From Gammaproteobacteria bacterium (GTDB taxonomy: Bacteria; Pseudomonadota; Gammaproteobacteria; Steroidobacterales; GCA-2729495), in assembly GCA_021773815.1 (NCBI GenBank), contig JAJFJS010000136.1:1-40987 (forward strand): DNA of 40,987 nt. The letters are read 5' to 3'. Made by a program: the position numbers and the translations under genes. How positions within the stretch are numbered: the stretch's first letter is position 1; each line of letters starts with the position of its first letter. Shown piece after piece: positions 10,352 to 14,127 of the stretch. The notes beneath the pieces were generated by a model, which was given only the letters and a program-made list of their open reading frames with translations, searched no databases and was not told where the DNA came from.

Positions 10352-11455
10352 ATGAAGCCGGTTCGCGTTCACCTTGTCGCCGCTGCGCGGCCGAACTTCA
10401 TGAAAGTTGCGCCGCTGTTTCATGCATTGCAAGCCGATCCGATGTTCGATGTTCGCCTGGTGCATACGGGCCAGCATTACGATGCGAACATGTCGGACAG
10501 TTTCTTCGCGGACCTGGGGTTGCCCAAGCCGGATTTTCACCTCGGTATTGGTAGCGGGACGCACGCGGAGCAGACCGGCGGGACCATGATCGAGTACGAG
10601 CGGGTCTGTATCTCCGATAAGCCGGACTGGGTGATCGTTGTCGGTGACGTCAACGCGACGGCCGCCGTCGCGCTGGTCTGCACCAAGCTGCACGTACCCG
10701 TGGTCCACCTTGAGGCTGGACTTCGCAGCGGCGACCGGACGATGCCCGAGGAGATCAACCGCCTCGTGACGGACTCGATCGCCGATTTGCTGTGGACGCC
10801 GTCACCCGATGGCGACGCACACCTGCTTGCCGAAGGTGTTCCGGCCGAGCGCATCGAACGCGTCGGCAATATCATGCTCGACTCGTTCGAGATGATGCGC
10901 GACCGGATCATGCAGTCGCCGGAGCGCGAGACGCTCGGCCTCGCCGATACGCGTTACGGCATCGTGACGCTGCATCGACCGTCAAACGTCGACGACCCGG
11001 CCGTACTGGGCATGCTCGTCGACCAGCTCTGTGCCGCGGCCACGCGCCTGCCGCTTGTCTTCCCGCTGCATCCCCGCACGCGCCAGCGCCTGGAAAAAGC
11101 CGGGCTCATGGATACGCTGGCGGGTGCGCCGGGCATGCATATCACCGAACCCATGGGCTATATCCGGTTCATGAGCCTCGTGACCGGCGCCGTCCTCGCG
11201 ATCACCGATTCGGGTGGTCTGCAGGAAGAGACGACCTACCTGGATATCCCGTGTCTGACGCTCCGGCCCAATACTGAGCGGCCGGTTACAGTGACCGAGG
11301 GGACGAACAAGCTGGTCGTGCCCTCGTCATTGCTCGCCGAGGTAGACCGGGCGCTGGCCGGCGACTGGCCGACGGGCCGCAAGCCGGACCTGTGGGACGG
11401 CCGGACAGCTGGGCGCTGCGTTGCCAGTCTGAAACGGCATATCGCCGCGCGCTGA
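10352..11455 (+). CDS. wecB: UDP-N-acetylglucosamine 2-epimerase (non-hydrolysing)
   Basis: This 367-aa enzyme converts UDP-GlcNAc to UDP-ManNAc in the cytoplasm, a precursor for cell-surface polysaccharides. Family motifs run in order: RPNFMKVAP (13-21, usually RPEAIK), GDVNAT (98-103) with Asp99, HLEAGLRSGDRTMPEEINR (119-137) with catalytic-region Glu121 and Glu133/134, TLHRPSNVD (206-214) with His208, and TDSGGLQEE plus LRPNTERPVT near the C-terminus. Length is typical. It could supply ManNAc to the exopolysaccharide locus that begins 3 kb downstream, though the intervening genes belong to other pathways. No partner UDP-ManNAc dehydrogenase (wecC) is seen. Confidence 0.92.
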   Translation: MKPVRVHLVAAARPNFMKVAPLFHALQADPMFDVRLVHTGQHYDANMSDSFFADLGLPKPDFHLGIGSGTHAEQTGGTMIEYERVCISDKPDWVIVVGDVNATAAVALVCTKLHVPVVHLEAGLRSGDRTMPEEINRLVTDSIADLLWTPSPDGDAHLLAEGVPAERIERVGNIMLDSFEMMRDRIMQSPERETLGLADTRYGIVTLHRPSNVDDPAVLGMLVDQLCAAATRLPLVFPLHPRTRQRLEKAGLMDTLAGAPGMHITEPMGYIRFMSLVTGAVLAITDSGGLQEETTYLDIPCLTLRPNTERPVTVTEGTNKLVVPSSLLAEVDRALAGDWPTGRKPDLWDGRTAGRCVASLKRHIAAR

Positions 11456-11634
11456 CCCGGACGGCACAGCAAGATCCGGGCCGGACTGCCGCATATTCAG
11501 TGCGGTTCGATGTGGCGGCGCATCCCGGGTTTGGTGCCGGCGCCCGGCACTTTGCGAGGCTGGCGGGGGGCTGTATAGTGTGCCGCGACCGGTTCCGGTC
11601 CCGGAAAATACAACGTAATGGAAGGTGTCATCTG

Positions 11635-12843
11635 ATGTCAGGTCCCCTTGAGGGTGTGCGCGTTCTCGAATTGACGAGCGTCGTGCTGGGTCCATGGGCG
11701 TGCCAGATGCTCGCCGACATGGGTGCTGAGGTAATCAAGGTCGAGGCGCCGCGCGGCGACAGCAACCGTACGCTGGGCGCGCATCACAGCAAGGGCATGG
11801 CCGCGCTGTACATGACCTGCAATCGTAACAAGCGCAGCCTGGTCCTGGACCTGAAGCAAGAGTCCGGGCGCGATGCGTTGCTCAAGATCGTCGCCGACGT
11901 TGACGTCGTCGTGCATAACAACCGGCCGCAGGTCATGACGCGGCTGGGTATCGACTACGAACAGCTCAAGAAGGTTAACCCGAAGCTGATTTTCTGCGGC
12001 AGTTACGGCTACGGCAAGGACGGCCCGTACGGCGCCCGCGGTGCGCTGGACGATTCGATTCAGGCGGCCAGCGGCATTGCGATGCTGCAGAAGATGGTTC
12101 TCGGTGAGCCGCGCTACCTGCCGACCGTCGTCGGCGACAAGACGACGGCGATGGCGGTCGTGTTTGCCGTGACGTCGGCGCTGTACCGGCGCGAGAAAAC
12201 CGGCGTCGGCCAGGAGATCGAAGTGCCAATGTTCGAAACCATGGTGTATTACGTCATGGCTGAGCATCTGTGGGGCATGACGTTCGAGCCGCCGCTGGGC
12301 ACCGCGGGCTACACGCGTCTGATGAGCCATCATCGCAAGCCGTACAAAACGAAGGACAGTTACATCGCGATCCTCCCGTATCTCGACAGTCACTGGGAGG
12401 TCTTCTGCAAGTTGTCCGGGCGCACCGATCTGCTCGACGATGATCGCTTCAAGACCCTGTCGGATCGTGTGCGCAATATCGACGATACGTATCAGGAAAC
12501 GGCCAAGACAATGGCGACCCGCACGACGGCCGAGTGGCTCGACATATTCGAAGATACCAGCGTGCCGACAATTGTCGTCAACACCCTCGAGGGACTGACG
12601 ACCGATCCGCATCTGACCGCCGTCAATTTCTGGGAGATTCACGAGCACCCGACCGAAGGCAAGCTGCGCATGCCTCGATTCCCGGTGGGCTTTTCCGAAT
12701 CGCCCGCGAGCATCCGGAGCCTGCCGCCGCACCTGGGTGAAAACAGCGTGGAGATCCTGCGCGAGTTCGGCGTGTCGGAAGACGAGATCCGGACGATGCT
12801 GGAGTCGGGCGCGACGCGCGAAGCGGATATCAAAAGCGCCTGA
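11635..12843 (+). CDS. CaiB/BaiF-type (family III) CoA-transferase
   Basis: This 402-aa enzyme moves CoA between carboxylic acids. The N-terminus (GVRVLELTSVVLGPWACQMLADMGAE) and VIKVEAP...GD (34-42) are the family signature. Asp139 in GPYGARGALDDSIQA aligns with the catalytic Asp of formyl-CoA transferase (Asp169). The C-terminal part (PRFPVGFSES, then PHLGENS) is also typical. The donor and acceptor acids are unknown. I chose the ATG at 11635, after a GGAAGG site, because the upstream frame has no family sequence. The nearby amidohydrolase on the opposite strand may act in the same degradative pathway. Confidence 0.9.
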   Translation: MSGPLEGVRVLELTSVVLGPWACQMLADMGAEVIKVEAPRGDSNRTLGAHHSKGMAALYMTCNRNKRSLVLDLKQESGRDALLKIVADVDVVVHNNRPQVMTRLGIDYEQLKKVNPKLIFCGSYGYGKDGPYGARGALDDSIQAASGIAMLQKMVLGEPRYLPTVVGDKTTAMAVVFAVTSALYRREKTGVGQEIEVPMFETMVYYVMAEHLWGMTFEPPLGTAGYTRLMSHHRKPYKTKDSYIAILPYLDSHWEVFCKLSGRTDLLDDDRFKTLSDRVRNIDDTYQETAKTMATRTTAEWLDIFEDTSVPTIVVNTLEGLTTDPHLTAVNFWEIHEHPTEGKLRMPRFPVGFSESPASIRSLPPHLGENSVEILREFGVSEDEIRTMLESGATREADIKSA

Positions 12844-12930: not shown

Positions 12931-13011
12931 GGCTTTCCCGGCATCGTTCCCTCGTAAACGGCGCCTAAGAAGGCGCCTGAAGGTTTACGAGGGAACGATG
13001 CCGGGAAAGCC
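12931..13011. repeat. 81-bp palindromic element 1
   Basis: Perfect 29-bp arms (12931-12959 and 12983-13011) flank a loop containing its own hairpin, GGCGCC/GGCGCC (12960-12965/12972-12977), then CTGAAGG running into the right arm. There is no T-run after it, so it does not look like a normal terminator. It has the same plan as element 2 at 13113. Confidence 0.9.
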
Positions 13012-13112
13012 TTGCGACCATGGCCTCATCTTGTCCCGTGGCTGCGCCATTCGGCCTGACGATGGTCGTAGGAGCGTCATCCGTTCAGCCGACTGACGGC
13101 GCCGCAGACCAA

Positions 13113-13192
13113 GGACTCGATCGACGTATAGACTGCGCAAACCTTCAGCCGCGCTTCGCGGCGGTTGCGCAGTCTATACGTCGATCGAGTCC
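13113..13192. repeat. 80-bp palindromic element 2
   Basis: Perfect 28-bp arms (13113-13140 and 13165-13192) have a sequence unrelated to element 1. The loop again holds a GC hairpin, GCCGCG/CGCGGC (13148-13153/13157-13162), next to AAACCTTCAG (13139-13148). That is the exact reverse complement of CTGAAGGTTT (12977-12986) in element 1. So the two share loop design but not arms, and lie in opposite orientation. The rest of the intergenic region between the convergent genes (12844-13251) shows nothing else. Confidence 0.9.
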
Positions 13193-13251: not shown

Positions 13252-14127
13252 TCAGTCTTCCAACCCGTAGATCCGGACCGTATTGTCGCGCAACAGCTTG
13301 CGGCGCACTTCCGGTTTCAGCCCCAGCGCGTCGATATCCTCGATCGTGCGTTTGAACGGCAGCACCGGGTAGTCCGTGCCGAAGATCACCTTGTCCTGAC
13401 CGTATGAATTGATATAGCGCTTGAAGCTCTCGGGCCAGTATTTCGGCCGGTGCGCGTCGCAGCCGATGTAGACGTTCTCGTGCTTCCAGGCCATCGCGAT
13501 CATCTCCTCGACCCACGGGATCCCGACGTGGATGCCGATGAGTTTCAGTCCGGGGAAATCACAGGCCACCGGGTCGAGCGCGATGGGCCGGCCGACGCTT
13601 TCACAGGGAAAGTCCTTCGCATAGATCATCGATTGACCGACCTGCATCTGGATCGGCACGCCCAGCTCCCAGCACTTGGCGTAAAACGGATAGTACTTGC
13701 GATGATCCGGCGCCAGGTTGAACCAGTGCGGATACAGATGGGCACCGACAAAGCCCATATTCGTCACCGCATCTTCGAATGCCTTGACGCCGTTCATGCC
13801 GTCGAAAGGATCGATGCCGGCCAGGCCGCGGAAGCGATCCGGGTATTGCTCGCAGGCGCGCGCGACCACCTCATACGGCATGTGATAACAACCCGGTAGC
13901 CCGGGCCGGCCGCTGTGCGCGGCAATCAGAAAAGCCTTGTCGATACCGGCGTCGTCGAGCGACTCGATCAGTTGTTCCAGGCTCAACGGCCCCATCAGGT
14001 TGCTGTCCGCATTCATCTTGCCGGTGAAAAAATCATCACCCCAGCCTGGTCGGTGGCGCAATGCCTCTTCCGTCCAGATGTTGACCACTGCATCGATCGC
14101 TTTGTAGTCGGCTGTGTCTTTCGTCAT
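13252..14127 (-). CDS. Amidohydrolase-2 family protein (TIM barrel)
   Basis: This 291-aa protein belongs to the amidohydrolase_2/ACMSD-like group of metal-dependent hydrolases and decarboxylases. GIHVGIPW (near 197) and FGTDYPVLPF (near 249) give the expected His and Asp metal ligands, and AHLYPHWF (about 110-117) supplies further His residues. The N-terminal HxH metal motif is missing: where IDxHxHxW is usual, this protein has IDAVVNIW (11-18). Metal binding is therefore altered or incomplete. The substrate is unknown; the ACMSD-like group acts on aromatic or carboxylated ring compounds. It converges on the CoA-transferase, with the two long palindromes between them. Confidence 0.82.
   Translation of the reverse strand: MTKDTADYKAIDAVVNIWTEEALRHRPGWGDDFFTGKMNADSNLMGPLSLEQLIESLDDAGIDKAFLIAAHSGRPGLPGCYHMPYEVVARACEQYPDRFRGLAGIDPFDGMNGVKAFEDAVTNMGFVGAHLYPHWFNLAPDHRKYYPFYAKCWELGVPIQMQVGQSMIYAKDFPCESVGRPIALDPVACDFPGLKLIGIHVGIPWVEEMIAMAWKHENVYIGCDAHRPKYWPESFKRYINSYGQDKVIFGTDYPVLPFKRTIEDIDALGLKPEVRRKLLRDNTVRIYGLED

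Follow-up and report, generated by a model that had tools for sequence, protein, structure and literature searches.

Paired long palindromes with a conserved core and co-varying arms form a dispersed repeat family in a gammaproteobacterial genus

How do two neighbouring palindromes come to share one loop when their arms are unrelated, and what keeps those arms paired? The question is raised by an intergenic region in a stretch of gammaproteobacterial DNA of 40,987 nucleotides, analysed as a whole (the window). The original prediction described two adjacent palindromes of 81 and 80 bp with perfect arms of 29 and 28 bp, each holding a GC hairpin beside the same CTGAAGGTTT, which is inverted in one of them; their coordinates and pairing are confirmed.

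The palindrome pair between two convergent genes

The intergene is convergent and is arranged as follows:
11392..12843, + strand: left neighbour, CoA-transferase family III gene, directed toward the palindrome unit
12931..12959, + strand: hairpin 1, 5' arm, 29 bp
12960..12977, + strand: hairpin 1, inner GC stem-loop GGCGCC-TAAGAA-GGCGCC
12978..12982, + strand: hairpin 1, TGAAG left unpaired on one side, the family's bulge
12983..13011, + strand: hairpin 1, 3' arm, 29 bp, complementing the 5' arm perfectly
13012..13112, no strand: 101-bp spacer separating the two oppositely oriented hairpins
13113..13140, - strand: hairpin 2 (- strand reading), 3' arm, 28 bp
13141..13164, - strand: hairpin 2, core with GC stem-loop GCCGCG-AAG-CGCGGC and TGAAGG, in the opposite orientation to hairpin 1
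13165..13192, - strand: hairpin 2 (- strand reading), 5' arm, 28 bp
13252..14127, - strand: right neighbour, amidohydrolase (Amidohydro_2) gene, directed toward the palindrome unit

The arms of element 1 (12931-13011, 81 bp, 29-bp arms) and element 2 (13113-13192, 80 bp, 28-bp arms) are 100% complementary, with 23 and 24 nt between them, respectively. The common core consists of AAAC, a GC hairpin, an unpaired TGAAG and GTTT (AACC in hairpin 2), and the 10-mer CTGAAGGTTT occupies positions 12977-12986 (+) in hairpin 1 and 13139-13148 (-) in hairpin 2. Among the matches listed for the 41-kb window at spacings of up to 400 bp, these are the two longest perfect inverted repeats. Folded as RNA on both strands (90-93 nt), the two elements reach -68 to -75 kcal/mol, with z-scores of the four foldings between -10.6 and -13.4, and 0 of 200 shuffles are as good. 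Neither hairpin resembles an intrinsic terminator, no T run lying behind it on the + or - strand; the eight bases after the two hairpins on these strands are TTGCGACC, GGGAATCC, GCCACCGG and TTGGTCTG. Between positions 12400 and 13700, Rfam returns five matches up to E 1 (four microRNA families and VA RNA), all well under their gathering scores, and these are read as chance matches of a long hairpin.

The distance between matching gene parts is 415 bp in the window genome, 45 bp in G168 and 14 bp in G194, two genus mates, and gaps of that size imply that the window unit is absent from both counterpart sites. One side only of the counterpart was found in G171, the third genus mate.

A repeat family within one genus

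All genomes compared are drafts, including the 3.87-Mb genome that contains the window (G000). There, CTGAAGGTTT occurs 29 times, against 2 occurrences of the reversed control; paired hairpins account for 13 of the 29 sites, hairpins whose arms do not match for 3 and hairpins truncated by contig ends for another 3, and the remaining 10 lie elsewhere. Two loop sizes are present in G000, a short one of 20-24 nt (the window pair and three hairpins on contig C109) and a long one of 51-52 nt, with the same GCCGC/GCGGC stem and bulge and a variable tip. A covariance model built from 16 hairpins recovers 20 full-length and 2 partial elements in G000, many of them matched on both strands, and, applied to 40 genomes of the taxonomic family, finds the repeat in two of the three genus mates (G168 and G171). 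Altogether, 67 elements were parsed (20 in G000, 40 in G168 and 7 in G171), and the idea of a pair with no other copies falls away. Elements retrieved after parsing are left out of the parse, arm, mispair, gene-context, position, covariation, transition:transversion and shared-site counts, except for L221 in the last.

A second model, built from 40 short-loop elements and run with stricter filters that lose weak matches, hits three genomes in a sample of 396 from the order, all three of this genus. With laxer scoring it gives 32 matches in G000, 102 in G168, 22 in G171 and 2 in G194, counting both strands and partial matches. The weak matches in G194 and in other genera are not copies of the family; they are GT(A/G)GGAGCGGCTTCAGCCGCGAT repeats, which we take to be REP-like. 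These repeats and their variants are seen at L103, L105-L107, L111, L112 and L115 in other genera and at L104, L110 and L116 in G194, and they share a GCGGCTGAAG/GCGCCTGAAG string with the core of the hairpin family, through shared ancestry or coincidence. A strict core pattern, which misses the long-loop type, matches the window's genome alone among 296 genomes of the order, and among 84,980 species genomes it finds seven stretches in other phyla or orders; these are attributed to chance because none has paired arms when inspected by eye. Viral contigs gave 0 matches with two patterns, and plasmids and phages gave no match to the one family unit searched. The hairpin family is thus real, specific and more than chance, and is a novel variant of miniature palindromic repeats. 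Further palindromes, around GACAGTT(C/T)ACTTATCTC, occur in G000 (L008, 107-165; L023, 1196-1288) and are probably another transposon-end repeat.

The usual unit, about 240-290 bp long, consists of TTTCCCTGG, a hairpin, a spacer, an inverted hairpin and CCAGGGAAA; spelled out, TTTCCCTGGNC is followed by the first hairpin, a spacer starting near TTGGACATATCG, the inverted second hairpin and GNCCAGGGAAA. Both ends were recognised in 14 distinct units, of which eight measure 240-286 bp, five 102-104 bp (with one hairpin) and one 138 bp. The terminal inverted motif TTTCCCTGG..CCAGGGAAA is present at both ends of the units scanned for target duplication (16 rows, 14 distinct units), and these show no flanking direct repeat longer than 3 bp. 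The palindromes are about 80-112 bp long, with arms of about 31 bp, and enclose a strongly conserved core of AAAC, a GC stem, a one-sided TGAAG or TTTAAG bulge and GTTT. The outer foot, which is TTTCCCTGG-like or, in some G000 copies, GCGCTGA-like, lies 5' of the core in 53 of the 67 elements, 3' in 3, on both sides in 3 and could not be placed in 8; the core is turned outward in 3 elements, against 53 in the usual orientation. The window pair has no clear TTTCCCTGG end and therefore represents a diverged subtype. At the end of contig C133 in G000 (L066, about 2253-2290), the TTTCCCT unit end is joined to the spacer start with the hairpin between them missing, an apparent hairpin loss. In G168, a two-hairpin unit (L124, C26:22800-25000, about 1008-1302) is enclosed by an additional perfect inverted repeat of 27 bp made of host DNA, an arrangement suggestive of reverse copying of the flank or of entry of the unit into a palindrome.

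Genes could be classed on both sides at 30 of 51 loci, 17 of them convergent, 7 tandem and 6 divergent, and the neighbouring gene ends that face units are 3' ends in 55 cases and 5' ends in 26 (P 0.002); these counts come from a crude gene caller and include loci shared between species more than once. On a circular chromosome, convergent pairs are as numerous as divergent pairs, so that 17:6 (P 0.035) amounts to a mild bias.

Several known systems resemble the family in part. The attC sites have conserved outer R boxes (RYYYAAC/GTTRRRY) and a variable inner part; judged by eye against these familiar motifs, the hairpin family is the opposite, with a fixed inner AAAC/GTTT and a variable outer part. 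Terminal inverted repeats are present, as in MITEs, but the window pair lacks a clear copy of them, and neither a target-site duplication nor an arm sequence common to the copies is found. The layout of inverted palindrome pairs, intergenic and in many copies, is that of REPs and REPINs. According to the available text on the REPINs, or REP doublets, of Pseudomonas (PMC3116915), these too are inverted palindrome pairs with a spacer, extragenic, dispersed and predicted to fold, and their spacer hairpin shows compensatory changes; however, their conserved part is the REP ends, whereas in the hairpin family the centre is fixed and the outer arms vary. REPs are also shorter (20-60 bp) than the palindromes described here, the arms of which measure 28-31 bp. 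The portion available on GTAG/CGTC REPs and the TIR repeats of tyrosine transposases (PMC3733652) describes dispersed palindromes as well, often dimeric and lying between unidirectional and convergent genes, and reports that long TIRs, in some cases self-complementary in part or in full, flank some RAYT genes. Unlike the hairpin family, these repeats are 20-40 bp long, defined by sequence and found at the transposase gene (PMC3733652).

A linked transposase was to be looked for, and none of the Y1 family (PF01797), the one enzyme family searched, lies beside the element. The draft genomes contain three Y1 genes in G000, two in G168 and none in G171 or G194, and in the 3.3-kb stretches around these five genes the hairpin family adjoins none; other inverted repeats are present at two of them (L172 and L173) and absent from three (L174-L176). 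At L172 in G168, two inverted repeats with a GGTGTCAGACACCAATTA motif (496-590 and 1404-1457) lie upstream of the Y1 transposase gene, and the window itself holds a GGTGTCAGACACCAATTA inverted repeat (170-187 / 278-295), which is probably a transposase-linked repeat of another family. No recurrent GTAG/CGTC foot tag is seen by eye in the 14-base flanks of the 67 parsed elements. Given the missing tag and the lack of an adjoining Y1 gene in the examined stretches, the family is not classed as REP. The expectation that the elements would look like neither terminators nor ordinary REPs therefore stands as regards the T run and the tag, but not as regards the layout, which is REPIN-like and that of an ordinary-looking miniature repeat. 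In TnpA-REP, as far as the available text goes, the folded strand is read via a foot motif, joined in E. coli by a bulge in the stem (PMC8266576); by analogy, the one-sided bulge suggests a similar logic with another foot and with free arms. Among the literature matches listed, titles and abstract openings reveal no bacterial dispersed repeat with a fixed core and free co-varying arms, and the word "compensatory" is absent from the available text of a survey of stem-loop families in bacteria (PMC2267715).

Covariation of the arms among copies and at shared sites

The parsed set includes 61 full-length elements, 56 with at least 25 of 31 pairs and five with unmatched arms. The 56 paired elements have 47 distinct 5' arms, and 18 of them pair perfectly (31/31). 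Many copies in G168 have identical arms. Pairing is sometimes lost, as in L219, which scores 16 over 31 pairs, and three unmatched-arm hairpins of G000 lie near contig ends and may be misassemblies. In an alignment of 40 elements, 95.5% of cells are paired, and changes on both sides affect 292 cells, where shuffles give 77. Covariation scores 0.561, compared with 0.135 +/- 0.010 when shuffled (0/500) and 0.06-0.12 (maximum 0.115) with slid partners; a 16-element alignment agrees. Arms thus differ and co-vary between copies, rather than being identical as in a simple MITE. A minimum spanning tree of the arms, from which three edges of more than 20 changes are omitted, contains 120 changes that are paired, 77 confined to one side and 11 that are double but unpaired. 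The earlier picture of free arms around a conserved loop holds in so far as the arms differ. However, the innermost arm bases are also conserved, so that the arms are free mainly in their middle and outer part: counted from the loop, AAAC at 0-3, TC at 6-7, CC at 9-10 and A at 12 are near fixed, and positions 14-22 and 27-28, among the most variable, are still paired in 50-56 of 56 elements.

Comparison of related species allows changes to be followed in place. Nine of the 12 G171 element loci examined match the flanks of G168 element loci at 83-92% identity, which indicates that most units of the two species were inherited in place. Four same-site hairpins from three of the nine shared loci could be compared (other copies being collapsed, unmatched or cut), over 96 arm pairs, with three hairpins limited to 27 pairs by an insertion, 23 by a contig end and 15 by a deletion. 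They show five paired, four one-sided and one double unpaired change, where 0.22-0.46 paired changes are expected if the arms change independently (P 4e-6 to 1e-4). In the left hairpin of L131/L154, the single shared-site case of its kind, the loop is inverted in place and the arms are unchanged but for one base. Elements of G000 lie beside the same genes as elements of G168 at four places, with very different arms that are paired in all except C51; these may reflect descent or repeated insertion.

Hairpins are also deleted at short direct repeats, as judged by eye, and the single hairpins at L159 and L160 resemble deletions across such repeats. Two single hairpins that pair perfectly and are bordered by outer motifs left and right (L142 and L217) and a half-matched stem (L212) were considered as finished and half-finished arm conversion, respectively; deletion explains all three, since AAAATACC and further short direct repeats are common to both hairpin types. 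The G171 counterpart of L125 was considered as an empty site and rejected as a decayed unit, because its spacer is apparently kept and its hairpins are lost (by eye). No clean empty site was found among the loci examined, and L156, used as a query, led to no clear orthologous site. In G168, the right arm end of a single hairpin (L208, C24:22100-24300, about 1055-1160) mirrors, as judged by eye, the left host flank (GACCCG / CGGGTC), which its G171 counterpart at that site (L220) does not; a snap-back copy is a possible origin of the L208 arm end.

How the arms may be kept paired

The best-supported explanation, unproven but in our judgement somewhat probable, is that the family is a REPIN/MITE-like repeat with a recognised core, the arms of which are kept complementary by template switching within the hairpin. 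The layout would be REPIN/BIME-like, with two long inverted hairpins around a spacer and a TTTCCCTGG-like outer end in most parsed copies. The folded single strand would be recognised via the core and bulge, independently of arm sequence, and its past or present mover may be an enzyme that reads structure, of the HUH type or another. Arm copying, the main reason for the preserved pairing on this view, would take place when replication or repair lets the hairpin form: the polymerase would switch template and copy one arm from the other (quasipalindrome correction). A new arm mutation would then either disappear or end up in both arms, and the loop would at times be inverted; selection for recognition would maintain the core. 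The repeat is presumably old in the genus. Between the two closest species most of it has probably descended in place, and G168, where many copies share identical arms, is likely to have seen a more recent multiplication.

Wobble-mediated compensation would yield paired changes that are mostly transitions, and a wobble pair cannot mediate transversions, so that paired transversions count against stepwise compensation. For tree edges of at most 6, 12 and 20 changes, the ratios of transitions to transversions among the paired changes are 14:13, 26:23 and 40:78, and those among one-sided changes are 27:16, 31:23 and 39:30; gene flanks give 1057:612. The contrast points to arm copying, although taken alone it falls short of significance (P 0.46 with one-sided changes as reference for edges up to 6, P 0.18 with flanks as reference for edges up to 12). 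The 48 distinct mispairs, read on the core strand, comprise 19 A.C, 6 G.T and 23 transversion types; the excess of A.C over G.T (19:6, P 0.015, with copies not independent) could reflect tolerance of G.U wobble on the opposite strand or strand-biased mutation.

These patterns bear first on the view that selection alone keeps the arms paired, second mutations compensating for first ones because the fold is functional, either as single-stranded DNA in transposition or as RNA that protects 3' ends or attenuates transcription in both directions between convergent genes. We regard this view as unlikely, although it is the most credible of the alternatives. The strongly conserved core, the intergenic units that more often face gene 3' ends (17 convergent among 30 loci; 55:26) and the lean of mispairs to A.C, which is G.U on the opposite strand, are all as it would have them, though the gene-context support comes from the crude gene caller. 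However, about half of the paired changes on short edges, and 78 of 118 on edges of up to 20, are transversions, for which the wobble route is impossible; G.U on the core strand is rare (6 of 1440 cells), 23 of the 48 distinct mispairs are of transversion types, and inversion of the loop in place is not predicted.

Template switching, as set out in the available parts of two studies (PMC8794818, PMC8604942), predicts paired changes, perfect stems and inversion of the loop or spacer; the paired transversions and the in-place loop flip fit this prediction, as do same-site paired changes between close relatives, the inversion being one shared-site case. The hairpins of those studies are described for RNA genes and yeast coding DNA and not, in the text available, for dispersed bacterial repeats with a fixed core (PMC8794818, PMC8604942). 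The nearest precedent found is in the mitochondrial palindromes of nematomorphs, long perfect inverted repeats with arms that evolve in concert as those of the hairpin family do, and for which template switching has been proposed as one possible mechanism; as far as the available account goes, they lie in coding regions and apparently do not form a repeat family with a common core (PMC6649704). Against template switching, paired changes could also arrive by conversion from other copies, no enzyme could be linked to the element (Y1 being the family searched) and transposition was not observed. The original suggestion that a copying process keeps the arms paired is therefore borne out to the extent that paired changes and loop inversion fit it, but the data do not distinguish it from selection acting on the fold or conversion from one copy to another.

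A related possibility, quite unlikely in our estimate, is that the family is a mobile element defined by its fold, in which a protein reads the bulged core and long stem and the arms are self-correcting and drifting. Arm sequence would be free because copying in the course of the life cycle rewrites one arm from the other, whenever the hairpin forms in single-strand transposition or replication, and inversion of the loop could change the orientation of the core.

Spread of ready-made paired arms among dispersed copies by conversion or recombination, with the arms at a site changing as a block taken from another unit, is a little less credible again. It is consistent with the identical arms of many G168 units, with the existence of unmatched-arm hairpins (5 of 61 full-length elements) and with shared-site paired variants that recur in the same genome, such as GTATCC of L157 in L218 (by eye). 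However, conversion moves paired variants without creating any, and 47 distinct arms are found in 56 elements. For individual events, conversion still competes with arm copying. Least of all do we favour an attC-like core at which folded-strand recombination between inverted cores would turn the spacer round and produce hairpins whose arms have been swapped, a very improbable reading: C4, C85 and C51 of G000 do carry arm halves of both types arranged as inversion predicts, but all lie near draft contig ends, C27 and C51 flank one place and yet form no simple single unit (which suggests misassembly), and the unmatched hairpins of G168 and G171 are explicable, by eye, by deletion at short direct repeats.

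Correction of quasipalindromes by template switching is known from reporter genes and from scattered events. The present family offers a natural set of dozens of fixed-core hairpins in sister species, some at shared sites, in which paired changes, mismatches, loop flips and deletions can be counted, and which would let the rate of arm copying in wild bacteria be measured. It also calls for caution, as stem covariation of this kind need not imply a functional RNA. The family would show that a mobile repeat can keep its structure without keeping its sequence.
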